DNA of 64,000 nucleotides, from NCBI RefSeq assembly GCF_001719125.1, contig NZ_CP017006.1, forward strand, positions 2,246,384 to 2,310,383, read 5' to 3'. Under the pieces are notes generated by a model. That model was not told the DNA's origin. It did no database searches and saw only the letters and a list, made by a program, of their open reading frames with translations. This stretch comes from Sulfolobus sp. A20. Its GTDB lineage: Archaea; Thermoproteota; Thermoprotei_A; Sulfolobales; Sulfolobaceae. Positions 6,698 to 42,330 of the stretch are shown piece by piece; within the stretch, counting starts at the first letter, position 1; the number at the start of each line of letters is the position of its first letter. The position numbers and the translations under genes are program-made.

Positions 6698-7543
6698 TCA
6701 CTCCTCTTCTTCCTCTATTACTCTTCTCTCTTTACCTTTAAGTTCAACCTGTTCTACAGATTTCTTCATCTCCTCAATTTCCTCTTTGCTTAACGGCAAA
6801 ATCGATGCAGAATTTGGAGCTATCCTAAGATATTTATCCCACTCAACTACTATTCCGTTGTCAGCTATCTCCATAGGGTGTCTAACCATAGATATTTTAG
6901 TATCCCTCATCTTCCACACAATTATTGACCTATATAACTTACCATCTATTTCATCTAAGTCTAGCCTTATTATTCCATCAACAGCGTGTTCAACACCTGG
7001 TCCTCCAAAACCTCTTTCACCTACAGATACTTGGCTAACGAAGAAAGCTGTACAACCTAAGCCTGATATGACTCTCTTCAACTTCATTACAACACTTCTA
7101 GCCATGGCTGGTTTAGTTAAATAAAGCGTACTGACTGAGTCAATAGCTAATCTAGTTGCCTTAATATCCTTTATTGCTTGTCTTAATACTTCAGAAAGTT
7201 CATCTACACTGTCAACTTGTTTGACAACGTATTTTTCTCTTTGAGCAATACTTCCAACTCCTCCAGTAAATGCATCAACTATTGCAAACTTTCCATCCTT
7301 TTCATATTTCATCACGTCCCAATTGAAGTGCTTAAAACTCCTTAAGACGGATACTGGATGCTCCTCTAAGGTGACATAGATTCCAGCCTCATCTCTAACC
7401 AATCCATTATATATAAACTGTTTAGCTGCTATTGACTTCCCGGTTCCAGGGCCACCGGAAAGTAATACAATGCTCCTTTCCGGAATACCACCATACAATA
7501 TCTCGTCTAGTCCGGGAATGTAAGTCCTTACCCTATCTACCAT
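6698..7543 (-). CDS. RecA/KaiC-superfamily ATPase (archaeal RadA paralogue)
   Basis: This single-domain RecA-like ATPase has 281 residues: Walker A GGPGTGKS at 30-37, catalytic glutamates E60-E61, Walker B LAID at 132-135 and KaiC-type phrases ([29 protein letters not shown]). The C-terminal 20 residues are highly acidic (VIEEEEE). In Sulfolobales several such RadA paralogues exist; some modulate RadA strand exchange and others act in signalling. The sequence does not decide which applies here. The start codon is followed by the canonical VDRVRT N-terminus. It is probably a single-gene unit. Confidence 0.85.
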
Positions 7544-7697
7544 GTTATAATTATCATGAGAGTTAACTTAAAATTTTACTCAAGTTAGATCGTATAGTAT
7601 TCTATAAAGAGGATTCAAATTAGAGTAATCCTGTTCAAAATTAAAAAACGCCTAAAACGTTCAATCTGAACTGTTTATTCTCTTTAACAATAAATTT

Positions 7698-7737
7698 GAC
7701 CTCACACTGAAGGGTAAGGTTTGCCGTTCTTTTATCA
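7698..7737 (-). repeat. IS-end repeat (left-end type) abutting a stop codon
   Basis: On the minus strand it begins TGATAAAAGAACGGCAAACC, matching the copies at 14318 and 33348. Its first three bases are the TGA stop codon of the CorA-like gene, so the junction lies at the stop. Confidence 0.75.
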
Positions 7738-8466
7738 TAGCCATCCAATTTTTCTCAAATAAATCGTTAACAATATTCCAATTAATACTAAAGGAATGGT
7801 AAAATATACAAAATTTAAAGTCATGAAATTAGAGGGTAAGTTCACGAAGCTTACAGCGTATATACTCGCTATTGCCGTAATGGGTAGAAAGATAAAGGAT
7901 ATGGAAGTTAATTTCTTTATAATTATATTTAAATTATTCTGTATTTCAGTTAAGTATATGTTGTATAGATCAGATTCCCTTGTGACCAATATTTCAGCCC
8001 TATCATAGGCGAATAAGCAATCCTCTTCGACTTCCTTATCTAAGAATTTAGACAACTTCTTCACCACATAATATAGGGATGAAGAATCGGAATAGAGCGT
8101 AATTATTGAGGAATGTATTGATATTATATTTGAGGTATCAGTTATTTTGCCCTCAGCAATCCTTTGGAATAAATCTTCAATTCTTTTGTGAAGTTCAATT
8201 CTCTTAGAACCAAACTCGTAAAGAATACCGTATATAACCTCTTTCATTATTTCTGTTACGCTACATTCCTCTGCATTCTTCGCTAGGCTAGCCAGAAACT
8301 CAGAATGAAAGACTATCTTCTGATTATCTATTGTAATATAATTAGGCGAATTATTAAAATCTATCCTTATAAAATACTTGTCATCGTTGTGGATAACCCT
8401 ATGAACGTCTACTTCGTCCTTGGGAAAGTCGTTAGGTAACGGGTACACTTCTAGATTACATTTCAT
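7735..8466 (-). CDS. CorA-like membrane protein lacking the GMN motif
   Basis: The 243-residue protein has a soluble, largely helical N-terminal part and two C-terminal membrane helices, with the CorA-type lead-in FIFLPITAIASIYAVSF. CorA magnesium channels carry YGMN at the end of the first helix. Here the corresponding place reads IYAVSF, so the selectivity motif is missing. The N-terminal domain is also shorter than in standard CorA proteins of about 310 residues. A divergent transporter or a non-transporting relative is possible. The C-terminus KIGWL ends exactly where an IS-end repeat begins, so the original tail may have been altered. Confidence 0.65.
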   Translation of the reverse strand: MKCNLEVYPLPNDFPKDEVDVHRVIHNDDKYFIRIDFNNSPNYITIDNQKIVFHSEFLASLAKNAEECSVTEIMKEVIYGILYEFGSKRIELHKRIEDLFQRIAEGKITDTSNIISIHSSIITLYSDSSSLYYVVKKLSKFLDKEVEEDCLFAYDRAEILVTRESDLYNIYLTEIQNNLNIIIKKLTSISFIFLPITAIASIYAVSFVNLPSNFMTLNFVYFTIPLVLIGILLTIYLRKIGWL

Positions 8467-8600
8467 ATACCTTATAATTGAAAGAGGGGAATTTAATTTT
8501 GAGCATAAAACTTGTTTATCCTCTCCCTTAAACTCATAAGCTTAGATAATCATGACTAAGTTGGATCAAACTTAAATGCAACGAAAAATATTCTTATATT

Positions 8601-9479
8601 ATGAAAAGAGGCATAAGTACATTAATAAAAGGAAAATATACAATGGACGGTGCCGGTGTAAAGCTGTACAGAGTCTTCGGAGGACCTAGAACTGTTAATT
8701 TAACTGATCCTTTCCTATTACTAGACTTCTTTGGCTCATCAGATCCATCTGACTATATTGCCGGCTTTCCGTGGCATCCTCACAGAGGCATTGAGACAGT
8801 AACGCTGTTATATAAGGGGAAAGTAGAGCATCAAGACAGTGAAGGAAATAGGGGTGTAATTTATCCGGGACAGTCACAGTGGATGACTGCAGGGAGTGGT
8901 ATCTTTCATGAAGAGATGCCCATGCCATTAGAAGGTTGGGAAATTGTGAAATACAATCAGAAGCCAGAGGAGATGAATGGGCTACAATTATGGATAAACT
9001 TACCATCCTACATGAAGATGACTGACCCAGTTTATAGAGATGTAAAACAAATTCCTAAGGAAACTTATGATTTCGGAACTATTCAAATACTTGCTGGAGA
9101 ATACAAAGGTTTTGAAGGTCCAGTAAGGGTAAAAAGTCCAGTTGATCCCACGTATTTTGACATAGTTCTAGATGGGCAGGTAAAAATACCGGTAAAGAAC
9201 GGCTACACTGTTCTAGTATACGTGGTTAGCGGGGATATTAATACAGCTAACACTTCCGTAGGGGAAGGGACTTTAATCGTATTTGATAGAGAGGGAGACG
9301 AAGTGGATATAAGTGGTAAAGGTAGATTCATCTTACTTTCTGGCAAACCTATTAACGAGCCTGTAGCCTGGTATGGTCCAATAGTTATGAACACTGAAGA
9401 TCAGATAATGGAAGCTTTAAGAGATTTGAGAGTAGGAACTTTCGTAAAGAAGAAAAGACCTACATTTGAAGAATTCTAA
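8601..9479 (+). CDS. Pirin family protein
   Basis: The 292-residue bicupin has the pirin N-terminal metal site intact: FPWHPHRG gives H59 and H61, and GIFHEEMP gives H103 and E105. Pirins are iron-binding cupins; some bacterial and human members oxidise quercetin. The size and the C-terminal cupin (FDIVLDGQVKIPVKNGYTVLVYVVSG in the middle of the second half) are normal. A TATA-like stretch (acttaaatg) about 27 bases before the ATG supports a leaderless start. It is a stand-alone gene, and the natural substrate is unknown. Confidence 0.92.
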   Translation: MKRGISTLIKGKYTMDGAGVKLYRVFGGPRTVNLTDPFLLLDFFGSSDPSDYIAGFPWHPHRGIETVTLLYKGKVEHQDSEGNRGVIYPGQSQWMTAGSGIFHEEMPMPLEGWEIVKYNQKPEEMNGLQLWINLPSYMKMTDPVYRDVKQIPKETYDFGTIQILAGEYKGFEGPVRVKSPVDPTYFDIVLDGQVKIPVKNGYTVLVYVVSGDINTANTSVGEGTLIVFDREGDEVDISGKGRFILLSGKPINEPVAWYGPIVMNTEDQIMEALRDLRVGTFVKKKRPTFEEF

Positions 9480-9486
9480 TTTTTTC
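9480..9486 (+). terminator. T-rich stretch after the pirin gene
   Basis: Six consecutive T residues directly follow the stop codon. It is a candidate archaeal terminator only. Confidence 0.3.
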
Positions 9487-9518
9487 TAGAATATTCTCAT
9501 CAAGGCTAAATATTGAAA

Positions 9519-9650
9519 GCTCTAAACCTAATCGGAGAAGATATAGGTAACGCTAAATTAATGAGGGATGATAGAGAGAAAAAAATAATGTACTCAATTC
9601 CTCAGCCATAGCTTGAATTTTTTCCAAGGACTGCAGTACTAAAAAGGTGA
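9519..9650 (+). pseudogene. Short unrecognised coding remnant
   Basis: One frame reads ALNLIGEDIGNAKLMRDDR, then KKIMYSIPQP, a stop, and LEFFPRTAVLKR before a second stop. The composition looks protein-like, with no start codon. I do not recognise a family. The rest of the 345-base gap 9480-9824 is AT-rich and shows nothing else. Confidence 0.25.
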
Positions 9651-9824
9651 GAAGTTTAGTCACTAGTAGAAGCAATCAGAATTCTAGGACGTTTGCTTAC
9701 GTAGATGTATTTAATGTACTCCTCCCTTACCCTCTTCCTTATATACTCACCCTAAAAGCACTCTCCTACAGTATAAAAATTTATATCAAAATAACTATAT
9801 CATTAACTCTTAATGTAATAAAAG

Positions 9825-10568
9825 TTAAGGTTGGTAATTTAACGTAGCGTAAATAATCGTATTATTATCCAACGTAAGCTTTATTTTATAATATCCTCCT
9901 GGTTTTAAGCCAGTGGGAAGGGGAGGAAACGTTATTGTAACGAAATTTGTTCCACTATTTAATTCCATAGGTGAGATGTTTAACGCGTGTAACTGGAACT
10001 CCTCTAATGTAGCATCTAAAATCCGCGCTTTAAAAGGGGAGTTAATCGTAACGTTAGCAATATTTCCTTTTAAATTACCCATAGCTTGCAGCTGTTGCCC
10101 TTGCATAGTTGGCTGTACATTAGATGCTGGTGTATAACTTCTCAATATTTCTCCTATCCCTATGTAGGCTAATATATAACCTATAAAAGCCACTATACCT
10201 ATAGGTATAGCACCTAAAATTCCACCTATTTTGGTATTACCATTGTTAAATTTATCTCCTATAGAATATATTGCTATTCCTACAAAGATTATACCTAATA
10301 TGTCCAGAAATGGAATTGCTAAGAATATAGCTCCTATTTTGCCTAGTCCCATATTATTTACAGAAGATGAAAGACCAGAGAACCCACCATAAAGTCTTAT
10401 TAGCGATAATATACCTATTATTAGGGCTATAATGAATAGAATTATTCCTATCACAATATTTGCAAAAAATCCTATCAGTGCGATAAATCCTATAAAAACC
10501 GTTATTATGGCGTACAATAAACCTTCTCTCACTTTTACTAGAGACGAATAAATTAAATCTGTAGCCAT
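9825..10568 (-). CDS. DUF973-type membrane protein
   Basis: I start this at 10568 (MATDLIYSS), 24 codons into the open frame, because a TATA-like stretch (tttttatattt) then sits about 25 bases upstream. The 247-residue protein has an N-terminal amphipathic VREGLLYAIITV segment, four to five hydrophobic segments to about residue 145, a Gln-rich linker, and a C-terminal beta-rich domain (FVTITFPPLPTGLKPGGYYK). This matches the archaeal DUF973 family of unknown function. The C-terminal half probably faces outside. The gene lies just downstream of the ECF transporter genes on the same strand but has its own promoter. Confidence 0.75.
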   Translation of the reverse strand: MATDLIYSSLVKVREGLLYAIITVFIGFIALIGFFANIVIGIILFIIALIIGILSLIRLYGGFSGLSSSVNNMGLGKIGAIFLAIPFLDILGIIFVGIAIYSIGDKFNNGNTKIGGILGAIPIGIVAFIGYILAYIGIGEILRSYTPASNVQPTMQGQQLQAMGNLKGNIANVTINSPFKARILDATLEEFQLHALNISPMELNSGTNFVTITFPPLPTGLKPGGYYKIKLTLDNNTIIYATLNYQP

Positions 10569-36179: not shown

Positions 36180-36263
36180 TCCATAAGACTTCATTACACT
36201 CATGCATAGTTCTTTCTCATATTTCTCTATATCGAATTTAGTTCTATAGAAAATATGTAGAAA

Positions 36264-36276
36264 AAGCTTATTACTT
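36264..36276 (+). promoter_or_regulatory. TATA-like box of the SixA-Ppx-Tmk-CHAD operon
   Basis: The stretch agcttattacttt is centred 27 bases before the ATG at 36297, giving a leaderless operon start. Confidence 0.55.
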
Positions 36277-36296
36277 TTCGACACTCTTACTATCAT

Positions 36297-36773
36297 ATGC
36301 TAAACTTAATAATTGTTAGACACGGTGAAGCTGAACCTCAAGTTGATGGGGTTAATGATAAAGATAGAAAATTGATTAAAAAAGGAATAAAGCAGATGAG
36401 AAGGATAGCTAACTTCCTAGATGAGATGGATTACACAATTGATAGAGTCATGACCAGCACTTTGATTAGGGCTTACCAATCGGCAGAAATAATTTTAGAT
36501 GAGCTGGGTGAAGATGATAAAAAGATAGAGAGTTTAGAGGAGCTAAACCCAGATAAGGATCCAATGGAGTTTTTAGGTAAACTCAAGGAAATGGACAATT
36601 CCACCCTTCTTATTGTTGGTCATGAGCCCTACTTATCCCAACTCATTAAAAGTATATCAGGGGGAAACGTTGAGATCAAGAAGGGAGGATTAGCAATAGT
36701 GGAGTATGACTCTAAAGAAGGGAGGGGTCAGCTAAAGTTACTCCTAAACCAAAAGGTTTTGAAGCTGGTTTAA
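36297..36773 (+). CDS. SixA-type histidine phosphatase
   Basis: The 158-residue protein has the small histidine-phosphatase pattern: RHGEAE (residues 8-13, phospho-histidine H9), the second arginine in STLIRAYQSAEI and the second histidine in LLIVGHEPYLS. Its size equals that of SixA. SixA removes phosphate from histidine residues of signalling proteins; other members act on small molecules. It opens a five-gene operon, and the ppx gene starts directly after its stop codon. In this context it could act on polyphosphate-related or phospho-histidine substrates; that is inference. Confidence 0.85.
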   Translation: MLNLIIVRHGEAEPQVDGVNDKDRKLIKKGIKQMRRIANFLDEMDYTIDRVMTSTLIRAYQSAEIILDELGEDDKKIESLEELNPDKDPMEFLGKLKEMDNSTLLIVGHEPYLSQLIKSISGGNVEIKKGGLAIVEYDSKEGRGQLKLLLNQKVLKLV

Positions 36774-38009
36774 ATGCGATATGCAGTAATTGATACTGGG
36801 TATAATTCAACTAGGTTATGTATTTATGATCTATTTCCAAATAAGACGTTCAGGATTTTAGGCTCACAGAAAGCCTATCTAAGATTGGGAGAAGGAGTTA
36901 AGGAAGGTTTACCAATACCAGCGGAAAAAGTAAGTGAAGCTGAGAGGGTATTTAAGTCATTTAAAACGATACTCGACAAGAAGGGGATTAACAACATAAA
37001 ACTAGTCGGGACGAGTGCCTTTAGATATGCGTCAAATGGAAATCAAGTGGCTGAACTATTGTCAGAAATTATAGGAGCTAAGATGAAATTATTATCTGGT
37101 GAGGAAGAGGGCAAATTCTCAGCAATGGGTAGTTTAAACACATTACCAGTCGATTCCGGAGTTATATTTGACTTAGGTGGAGGATCCCTAGAGGTAGTTT
37201 ACTTCTCTTCAAGGCAAATTAAGGAAGTTTATCACTTTCCTCTCGGAGCCTTGAAGTTAGCTAAGGACTTCAGTGATGAGAATGAATTGAGGAAGAAGGT
37301 AAGAAATGAGCTTTCAATTCTGAAACCCAGTAATGGGGTTATTATTGGTTCTGGAGGTAATGTTAGGGCTTTAGGAAAGATGGACGCAAAACTCTCAGCT
37401 TTTCCCATAAAGTCAATTCACGGGTACGAGCTATACATTAAACAAGTTTCAAAGTACTCCAAAGTTCTCATGAATCTTGATGCAGAAGAGAGGAGCAATT
37501 TGCCCGGCATTGGTAAGGAGAGATCTTACACGGTACATACTGCCTCCGTGATAATTGAGGAGTTGGGAAAAATTTTAGATAGCTCAACCATACTCATCTC
37601 GTCCTTTGGTTTAAGAGAGGGCGTACTAATGGAGAGTATTATAGAAAATCCTAGAGAGAAATGGCTTGAAGCTTTTGCTAATTGGTTTAACGTTGATCCT
37701 CCGTGGGAAGTTTATAATTACTTTGACGATTTTTATATGAAGGTAACCTCATATATACTGGCAGTTATCAAGATGACCGGATTTTTAGATCCTTACGACA
37801 CTTGTTACAAATTGCTAAGAGATATAACTATTCCAGGCTTTACAGCGAAGGAAATACTCATGATATCCTTATTATGTAAAGCCTCGTCTGGGAAACTGAA
37901 GAAGAAGAACTTAGGACCTCTTAGAAAAGTGTTGAATAAGAACAAACTTCTAGATAAAGGTAAGGAAATAAGGAAAATAGTAGAGTCATCTGTGGCTGGT
38001 GTCTTATGA
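36774..38009 (+). CDS. ppx: Exopolyphosphatase / GppA-family phosphatase
   Basis: The 411-residue protein has the Ppx/GppA ASKHA fold: phosphate-1 loop [25 protein letters not shown], the catalytic [12 protein letters not shown], phosphate-2 loop [20 protein letters not shown], then a helical C-terminal part (HD-like core not obvious). Ppx cuts terminal phosphate from polyphosphate; GppA converts pppGpp. Archaea generally lack pppGpp, so Ppx is the more likely role. The gene starts with no gap after sixA and overlaps the thymidylate kinase by four bases. Confidence 0.9.
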
Positions 38010-38638
38010 GAGGTATGCTCATAGCGTTTGAAGGCATAGACGGTTCTGGGAAATCTAGCCAAGCCTCATTGCTAAGGGATTGGTTATCAAAGAAGAAATA
38101 TACGTATTTGACTGAGTGGAACTCCTCAGAGTGGATTCACGATATAATAAAAGAGGCTAAGAAGAAGAACTTACTAACCCCTTTAACTTTTAGTCTAATC
38201 CACGCCACTGACTTCGCTGATAGGTATGAGAAGTACATTTTACCCATGTTGAGTTGTGGTTTTATAGTAATCGCTGATAGATACATTTACACTGCCTACG
38301 CTAGAGATACTGTTAGGGGAGTGAACATGGAATGGGTTAAGAAGTTATATAGTTTCGCCATTAAGCCAGATATAATCTTTTACATTAGAGTTCCCCCGGA
38401 GATAGCGTTAAAGAGATTAAAGAATGCTAGAAGGCAAATAAAACCCGCTGAGGCTGGAGCTGACGTCTTCCCAAACTTAACCCCAGAAGAGGGTTTTCTA
38501 AAATATCAGTCAGCTATAACTGAGGTTTACGATAGGATAGCTGAGGAAAACGGTTTTACAATTATAGAAGGGGTTAGAAATCCTAGAGAAGTCCAAAAGG
38601 AGATAAGAAGGAAAGTGATGGAAATATGGGAAAAATAA
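38006..38638 (+). CDS. tmk: Thymidylate kinase
   Basis: The 210-residue protein has P-loop [12 protein letters not shown] (about residues 8-19), the DR-type motif [13 protein letters not shown], and the LID-region [18 protein letters not shown]. This is the dTMP kinase family. It overlaps ppx by four bases and the next kinase-like gene by 13 bases. The motif set is complete, so it should be an active NMP kinase. Placement between a polyphosphatase and a CHAD gene leaves room for a phosphate donor or acceptor other than the classical pair. Confidence 0.88.
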
Positions 38639-39252
38639 TAGCCATTGAAGGGATTACCAACTCTGGTAAGACTACCCACGTGCTTAGCCTTAAGGATTTC
38701 CTTGAAGATAAAGGTTATGGTGTAATAACTTTCGGAATACTCTCCTCAAAGCTCTTATCTGAGGCAATAATTAACGTTAAGAGGGAAATATTTTACCAGA
38801 GAAGAACGTTATTCCTAGCTTACGTAACTGACTTAGCTGACCAAATTGAAAACGTTGTTAAACCAGCCTTAGACTCCGGTTTTATAGCAATTGCCGATGG
38901 CTACACTTTAACCTTAGAGGCTTGGGCTCTAACGAGGAAACTGGATAAGGAGTGGGTTGAAGGAGTCCTCTCAGCTCTACCAGTAGCTAATCTCTCAATC
39001 TCACTGATATCTCCACCAATGGAAATAATAAGAAGAATAATTAAAAAGAAAGGCTTTTTAGACCCCTTAAGTGAGAGCATTGACTTGAGCATTAAAGATG
39101 ACGTATTTCTCTCTTACAAGAAGTACATTAACGAATTCCAGCTTTACTTGAAGTCAATCTCAAAAAACGTAATCGTAACTAAGGGAAATGTAGACGAAGT
39201 AAATGATAGTATACAAAAATACGTGAAAGAGGTATTAGAAATTGAAACCTGA
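38626..39252 (+). CDS. Divergent second thymidylate-kinase-like protein
   Basis: The 208-residue protein keeps the P-loop ([13 protein letters not shown], about residues 6-18) and the overall Tmk length, but the DRY-type motif reads [11 protein letters not shown], with Arg replaced by Gly, and the LID arginines differ ([14 protein letters not shown]). It is therefore unlikely to be a normal dTMP kinase. It is directly coupled to tmk upstream and to the CHAD gene downstream. A regulatory subunit or a kinase with another substrate, possibly a polyphosphate-linked one, are the main options. Confidence 0.8.
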
Positions 39253-39871
39253 GGAATACGCTAACTTACACTTAAGCGAGTTCCTCTCCTATTCTGGAAT
39301 ATCTGAGGACGAGATACATGATGCTAGAGTAGAGTTAAGAAAGTACTTAACCATTGCTAAAGCAACCTATAAATTGCACTTGAAAGCAGAGTGTATAATA
39401 AGAGCTAAAAAGATAATGAGAGGATTAGGAAAAGTGAGAGACATGGACATAATGTTCTGCGTAAAGCTCAATGAAAGGGACAGATTAGCTAAAAAAGTTG
39501 TTAATTCCTTCATCTCTTTGAGAAACTGTTACTTACCAAAAATTTTCGGAAGTAGATTGATCATAGCTGAAAAAATTTTCTTGAATTACAATACATTAAA
39601 GGTAGAGGAAGAGTTTCACTCTATTAGGAAAATAATAAGGGAGACGAGGTTCTTAATGGAAAGTCTGAACTTAGACTCCTCTTTACTGAAGGAGATTTCA
39701 CAAGAGTTGGGAAATATGAGGGATACCTATTTATTTAACGTTAAGTGCTTAGGGAAAAATGAAAAACTCGATAAGGTTAGGATTAATGAGCTCAAAGAGA
39801 AGGCTCTAAAGGACATTCAGCATAAGTTAAACTCAACTGAGTTTTACCACCTACACTTAAAAAATTTCTAA
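39242..39871 (+). CDS. CHAD domain protein
   Basis: The 209-residue protein has CHAD-type histidine and arginine-rich helices: EIHDARVELRKYLTIAK (family vHxxRVxxRRxR), IMRGLGKVRDMDIM (family lGxvRDxdV) and a C-terminal repeat of the unit with LGNMRDTYLF. CHAD domains bind inorganic polyphosphate and localise to polyphosphate granules in bacteria. TTG at 39242 overlaps the upstream gene by 11 bases. It closes the operon; its presence makes polyphosphate the most natural common theme. Confidence 0.85.
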   Translation: MKPEEYANLHLSEFLSYSGISEDEIHDARVELRKYLTIAKATYKLHLKAECIIRAKKIMRGLGKVRDMDIMFCVKLNERDRLAKKVVNSFISLRNCYLPKIFGSRLIIAEKIFLNYNTLKVEEEFHSIRKIIRETRFLMESLNLDSSLLKEISQELGNMRDTYLFNVKCLGKNEKLDKVRINELKEKALKDIQHKLNSTEFYHLHLKNF

Positions 39872-41959: not shown

Positions 41960-42330
41960 TAGCAAAGTCATTTAGTGTTTCAGCCATCTTCTTAGAGGAC
42001 TTAAACAACCTCATAAAGAGCGTGAAGAAGTTACCAACAGAGTTTAGGGATAAACTCTACTTGATGCAGTACCGTAGACTTCAGTACTGGATTGAGTGGC
42101 AGGCTAAGAAACATGGGCTGAAGGTAGTGTATGTTGACCCACACCATTCCTCTACTCGCTGTCCTAAGTGCGGGAAAGAAATGGAAGAAGCGGGACATAG
42201 GTGCTACCATTGTCCAAGTTGTGGTTATGAGAACGATAGGGATGTAATTGCGATTGTGAACTTGTATGGGAGGGGTTCTCTGACCCTCTCGACTGCCCCT
42301 CATATGAGAGATGTAGTCCCGAATCGATGA
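41960..42330 (+). pseudogene. tnpB: TnpB C-terminal fragment with zinc ribbon
   Basis: The open frame carries [20 protein letters not shown], then [20 protein letters not shown], the zinc ribbon CPKCG...CPSCG (two CxxC pairs) and [20 protein letters not shown]. This is the end of the RuvC-like nuclease and the zinc finger of an IS200/IS605 TnpB (about 400 residues when whole). The first catalytic aspartate domain is missing. A GTG at 42022 opens a 102-residue frame, but it is unlikely to be functional. The end repeat at 41914-41959 replaces the N-terminal part. Confidence 0.85.

Follow-up and report, generated by a model that had tools for sequence, protein, structure and literature searches.

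A five-gene polyphosphate operon of Sulfolobus sp. A20 with a probable two-subunit, thymidylate kinase-like polyphosphate kinase

A locus in a 64,000-nucleotide stretch of the genome of Sulfolobus sp. A20 (the window, by which the whole stretch is meant here) raises the question of what two apparent thymidylate kinases (Tmk) do among genes of polyphosphate (polyP) metabolism. The five genes of the locus encode, in this order, a histidine phosphatase (SixA), an exopolyphosphatase (Ppx), two proteins of the Tmk fold (TmkA and TmkB) and a CHAD protein. Earlier papers noted that no polyphosphate kinase (PPK) was known from Crenarchaeota (PMC6864096, PMC7831078). We conclude, with a probability of about 0.88, that the locus is a polyP operon whose TmkA and TmkB proteins together constitute a PPK3-type polyphosphate kinase of two subunits. 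A preliminary description, made from the sequence alone, had proposed that a Tmk-fold kinase using polyP as donor or product would explain the gene set. This proposal was supported by the gene order, the joint loss and exchange of the genes, the absence of PPK1 and PPK2, the presence of a separate ordinary Tmk, the remodelled acceptor site of TmkA and the residues of the CHAD protein.

The five genes were found in the same order and on the same strand in 26 of the 31 Sulfolobaceae genomes, and the order, which the preliminary description had proposed to compare among relatives, was thus conserved. Three genomes (G119, G154 and G148) gave no match for Ppx, TmkB or CHAD, and their TmkA matches, if any, were at the level of an ordinary Tmk. 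A deletion extending from within ppx into the CHAD gene had removed both Tmk genes and left SixA intact in genome G050 (locus L054), and genome G149 possessed Ppx and lacked the TmkA-TmkB pair. The ppx gene was interrupted in the loci L036, L047 and L055; in the last of these (genome G151), TmkB was also split by an insertion of approximately 2.8 kb (7322-10084). Reading of the inserted sequences identified a 333-aa transposase-like open reading frame and a TnpB-like fragment. Within the set compared, all five genes of the window were closest to the loci of another genus, g4 (L034 and L035), and not to those of their own genus. The identities to g4 and to the own genus were 74% vs 47-48% for Ppx, 72-73% vs 58-60% for TmkB and 57-58% vs 35-37% for CHAD. 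The ordinary Tmk was closest to its own genus (71% vs 53-54% for g4), and the surroundings of the operon in the other 19 loci contained none of the genes that flank it in the window. It is probable from these comparisons that the operon was horizontally exchanged as one unit. Both the exchange of the genes together and their loss together indicate a single functional unit.

The family models of PPK1 (PF02503) and PPK2 (PF03976) matched nothing anywhere in the whole genome, and neither enzyme was found in any of the Sulfolobaceae genomes sampled. The earlier statement that no Ppk is seen at the locus therefore held for these two families, and failed in so far as the two Tmk-like genes are themselves, as we conclude, the Ppk. 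A separate ordinary Tmk is encoded at C1:436483 of the same genome. The genomes that had lost TmkA-TmkB still had one ordinary Tmk and that one only, indicating that TmkA is dispensable for dTMP phosphorylation.

TmkA matched the Thymidylate_kin family (5.7e-27), and its predicted model showed the Tmk fold (pLDDT 89). The best structural matches were those of its orthologue ST1543 from S. tokodaii (PDB 2plr/4nzy/4rzx/5h70; E 2.7e-104, Z 24.1). The P-loop lysine K16, D12 and the DRY motif were retained by TmkA in essentially all of 122 sequences. TmkA has H66, F70, R73, R100, D101 and R104; the corresponding residues of most ordinary Tmks are F66, R70, H73, Y100, Q101 and a non-basic residue, with R70 in 48 and Y100 in all of the 50 compared (TmkA numbering). 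F66, R70, Y100 and Q101 take part in dTMP binding in ordinary Tmk. Two further motifs, EWNSS (37-41) and EAGxD (149-153), were specific to TmkA. TmkA was monophyletic in the tree (support 0.97), and TmkA and TmkB stood apart from the ordinary Tmks (0.87), while TmkB did not form one clade. No TmkA match was found in plasmids.

Several observations weigh against a polyP kinase. TmkA passed the NCBI dTMP-kinase equivalog TIGR00041 (99.5 against a cut-off of 83.25), and the PDB entries of ST1543 carry the title dTMP kinase. The hhalign probability to PPK2 was only 14% for TmkA, compared with 69% for an ordinary Tmk, and PPK1 and PPK2 accompany the pair in published Nitrospira genomes (PMC7078480). 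The first two of these would suit the explanation that TmkA is simply another dTMP kinase of the ordinary kind, that TmkB is a copy in decay and that the polyP genes are mere neighbours. We regard this as very improbable, as the ordinary Tmk lies elsewhere in the genome, the marker residues of ordinary Tmk were lost from TmkA in every sequence examined, some Sulfolobaceae genomes live without TmkA, and the tandem is found next to polyP genes repeatedly in two domains of life. TmkA and TmkB share the fold, the P-loop and the DRY motif with the thymidylate kinase family (TIGR00041/PF02223), but the marker residues are replaced in TmkA, and TmkB has diverged further. As TmkA passes the equivalog cut-off despite its changed acceptor-site residues, the general annotation as dTMP kinase is probably wrong across the TmkA family.

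Membership in PPK2 or a special closeness to it was ruled out for TmkA and TmkB by the PF03976 family search and the profile comparison. PPK2 and TmkA share the P-loop kinase fold of the Tmk superfamily, but the window pair had no PF03976 match. PPK2 chains were absent from the 50 matches listed in the structure comparison of the TmkA and TmkB models, which carries no weight either way. In the study of F. tularensis PPK2, ST1543 is one of the closest structures outside the PPK2 family (PMC4748334). Because the profile comparison placed TmkA no closer to PPK2 than an ordinary Tmk, kinship with PPK2 is no argument for the polyP kinase.

TmkB was more divergent. Its match to Thymidylate_kin was 1.7e-7, and its TIGR00041 score of 38.4 was under the cut-off of 83.25. 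The predicted model again had the Tmk fold (pLDDT 85), with ST1543 as the best match (5h70, Z 23.8). TmkB of the window keeps the P-loop lysine (GITNSGKTT), but the acid of its P-loop and the arginines of the ADR and DRY motifs are gone; it also lacks D12, R73 and R92 when these positions are read individually. All Sulfolobaceae TmkB sequences have DGY in place of DRY and Gln in place of the ADR arginine, and in this family the position of R100 is Trp; the P-loop lysine is replaced by arginine in 107 of 120 TmkB homologues. The sequences thus present an intact P-loop in the putative catalytic subunit and a diverged partner, as expected for PPK3. The arginine in place of the P-loop lysine in most TmkB homologues, as well as the PhoU and histidine kinase genes upstream of the pair in Chloroflexi, would also agree with the pair being a sensor of phosphate or polyP with no catalytic role. 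Such a sensor appears extremely improbable, because the P-loop, D12 and DRY are intact in essentially all TmkA homologues.

The family searches returned all five families that the preliminary description had named: histidine phosphatase, exopolyphosphatase, two Tmk-fold proteins and CHAD. SixA matched His_Phos_1 (PF00300, 1.9e-14) and passed TIGR00249 with 95.4 bits against a cut-off of 74.5. Ppx matched Ppx-GppA (PF02541, 2.4e-40) and reached 212 bits against TIGR03706, under the cut-off of 307; its family includes the Ppx proteins investigated in S. solfataricus and S. acidocaldarius (the latter Saci_2018; PMC7831078). The CHAD match was weak but real (PF05235, 25.7 bits against a cut-off of 25.6; E 1.4e-5). 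As it sits only at the threshold, the CHAD family search of the single genome was blank despite the presence of the gene, and blanks from that search were not taken as absence. CHAD proteins have been placed in polyP gene clusters, and the binding of polyP by SsCHAD, which has a KD of 45 nM, is abolished by replacement of H29/R32/R36/R69 (PMC6537752). Sequence comparison showed that H26, R29, R33 and R66 of the window protein correspond to these four residues, all of which are conserved.

A crenarchaeal polyP-synthesising enzyme has been characterised in S. acidocaldarius as an 'archaeal family 3 polyphosphate kinase' (Hofmann et al. 2024, as cited in a passage of PMC11677633). The window likewise holds two tandem Tmk-fold genes directly downstream of ppx. 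In the preprint of Hofmann et al., two genes annotated as thymidylate kinases downstream of ppx are said to encode PPK3, one its catalytic and the other its regulatory subunit; we take these to be saci_2019/saci_2020. PPK3 is reportedly reversible and favours ATP formation, with true thymidylate kinase activity coming from a separate gene. The genome of the locus L034 is presumably that of S. acidocaldarius, and its TmkA and TmkB genes, located after ppx in the same operon, encode proteins with 82% and 73% identity to those of the window. This reported picture matches the independent findings made here, including TmkA as the catalytic protein and TmkB as its partner. The system is itself already known, and the window holds a close relative of PPK3 of S. 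acidocaldarius. The pair directly downstream of ppx, the Tmk-fold tandem, the high identities and the separate ordinary Tmk are all alike, and no substantial difference was found; the operon of the window belongs to a different genus and has probably passed from one lineage to another. The context of SixA, PPX, dTMP kinase and CHAD genes had been drawn for several Sulfolobales biomining archaea (PMC10892726, Fig. 2), in the same order as in the window; in the part of that article concerned with this context, the kinases are treated as dTMP kinases and no polyP kinase is discussed. The preliminary description regarded the set as not a textbook arrangement; with PPK3 reported in 2024 and the context drawn earlier, its idea was right but new only to that description.

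The distribution of the pair was then surveyed in 398 Thermoproteota genomes, with thresholds of at least 355 bits for TmkA and more than 200 bits for PPK2. Ppx occurred in 48 genomes and TmkA in 34, every one of which was among those 48 with Ppx or its remains. PPK1 was detected in 11 genomes, each of which had Ppx but lacked TmkA, and PPK2 in 20, comprising 10 with TmkA, 8 with PPK1 and 2 with neither. Ppx and the pair occurred without PPK1 or PPK2 in 24 genomes. As the pattern tracks lineages, these counts are not independent events. Apart from Sulfolobaceae, the Thermoproteota families with the pair probably consist of ammonia-oxidising archaea, and named records confirmed Nitrosopumilaceae and Nitrososphaerales as carriers. 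Many of those families kept SixA-Ppx-TmkA-TmkB, in line or divergent, with CHAD alongside. In three loci of the family f51 (L183-L185; genomes G338, G427 and G448), the tandem was kept though separated from Ppx. The f14 lineage (L127, L132-L134, L136, L142, L145 and L147) had a PPK1-Ppx cluster instead, with PPK2 adjacent in some loci; in L127, a CHAD-phosphoesterase-HD fusion protein was encoded between PPK1 and Ppx. The idea that the pair strictly replaces PPK1 was true in the Thermoproteota sample and is contradicted by the Nitrospira genomes mentioned above, and it was dropped as a general rule; beyond the archaea, the pair cannot be regarded as a mere replacement of PPK1.

To look beyond Thermoproteota, species genomes were scanned with the TmkA alignment; this detected at least 545 relatives, and the best 80 loci were examined with flanks of approximately 6 kb. 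By record title, 65 of these loci were bacterial and 15 archaeal, the pair being present also in Thermoplasmata. The bacterial carriers belonged to more than 10 phyla, including Acidobacteria, Nitrospirae, Chloroflexi, Planctomycetes, Verrucomicrobia, Omnitrophica, Cyanobacteria/Melainabacteria, Gemmatimonadetes, Deltaproteobacteria and others; most loci came from metagenome-assembled genomes, and the isolate Thermanaerothrix daxensis was included. TmkB directly followed TmkA in 79 of the 80 loci, and the remaining one stops at a contig edge. This tandem, together with the gene order in Sulfolobaceae, is more than chance would give. Within the flanks examined, Ppx was found in 44 loci, SixA in 33, CHAD in 33, PPK2 in 5 and PPK1 in none, and at least one of Ppx, SixA, CHAD and PPK2 in 57. 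Gene context was not selected for, as the scan patterns were derived from TmkA alone, and Ppx, SixA, CHAD and PPK neighbours were absent from ordinary Tmk loci, for which shorter flanks (approximately 1.5 kb) were searched. In the Chloroflexi loci L216 and L230, PhoU directly preceded TmkA-TmkB-CHAD in a phosphate-regulon setting, with a histidine kinase before PhoU in L216 and a Ppx domain-III/HD protein after CHAD in L230.

The remaining 23 of the 80 loci, which had no recognised polyP gene within the flanks, leave some room for a kinase that uses ATP to phosphorylate another small acceptor and is co-expressed with phosphate storage, not acting on polyP itself. The Tmk fold, the changed acceptor site and a resemblance to PPK2 no closer than that of other Tmks would also agree with such an enzyme. 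It is nevertheless quite improbable in view of the tight linkage to Ppx and CHAD, the 24 genomes having no other PPK, and the characterisation in S. acidocaldarius to which PMC11677633 refers. For the polyphosphate kinase, the evidence leans, by a modest degree, towards TmkA-TmkB being a third family of such kinases across archaea and more than 10 bacterial phyla, hidden by resemblance to Tmk, with a conserved division of labour between the Lys and Arg P-loops, and present even where PPK1 and PPK2 are found as well. Kinase activity outside Sulfolobales is something that we infer only. The bacterial spread was not found in the literature searched, and the preprint of Hofmann et al. may describe such a spread; the spread of the pair and the conserved Lys/Arg asymmetry between the subunits may be new.

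The features of the operon are listed in Table 1. All genes run head to tail, and the open reading frame coordinates gave spacings of 0, -4, -13 and -11 from SixA to CHAD, the same as those described previously. The start codon (ATG) of SixA is located approximately 27 bases 3' of a promoter box, GAAAAAGCTTATTAC, which fits the spacing that a leaderless transcript would give. The box was identical in both S. acidocaldarius-like loci (L034 and L035), and a similar A-rich/TTAT box was located at about the same distance 5' of SixA in nearly all Sulfolobaceae loci. The set accordingly lies behind one putative promoter, as proposed earlier. Position 36264, the left end of the region as previously delimited, falls inside this box and outside any gene. 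Approximately 2 kb downstream of the operon, the window also contains a remnant of a TnpB-type gene (42022-42330; Cas12f1-like TNB domain, 3.4e-20).

Table 1. Features of the polyP operon, in window coordinates
Feature	Position	Strand	Description
Promoter box, BRE/TATA-like, GAAAAAGCTTATTAC	36260-36274	+	Read from sequence
SixA gene	36297-36773	+	Histidine phosphatase, SixA-type, 158 aa, RHG and GHEP motifs
Ppx gene	36774-38009	+	Exopolyphosphatase, 411 aa
TmkA gene	38006-38638	+	Tmk fold, 210 aa, annotated dTMP kinase; putative catalytic subunit of PPK3-type kinase
TmkB gene	38626-39252	+	Tmk fold, 208 aa; putative partner, probably regulatory, of PPK3-type kinase
CHAD gene	39242-39871	+	polyP-binding protein, 209 aa, TTG start

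TmkA with its intact P-loop would move phosphate reversibly between ATP and the polyP chain. PolyP would be made when ATP is plentiful, and ADP would be converted to ATP at the expense of polyP when the energy charge falls. TmkB, in which conserved catalytic positions are missing, would act as the partner of TmkA and enhance or regulate the activity of the latter. CHAD would hold polyP and Ppx would trim the polymer to phosphate. Ppx activity, polyP binding by CHAD (PMC6537752) and, reportedly, the kinase activity (preprint of Hofmann et al.) were shown in relatives by others. The proteins of the window presumably act like those of their relatives, TmkA and TmkB as a heteromer, and SixA may have some part in the system.

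The two 'thymidylate kinases' annotated in the window are thus most probably the polyphosphate kinase long reported to be missing from Sulfolobales. In many ammonia-oxidising archaea and in bacteria, the pair can serve as a marker of a polyP system whose two subunits look like thymidylate kinases and which is undercounted by surveys restricted to PPK1 and PPK2. Should the bacterial pairs prove active, energy buffering by polyP would be ancient and widespread, and the Lys/Arg asymmetry of the P-loops would provide a simple marker for finding and dissecting the system.

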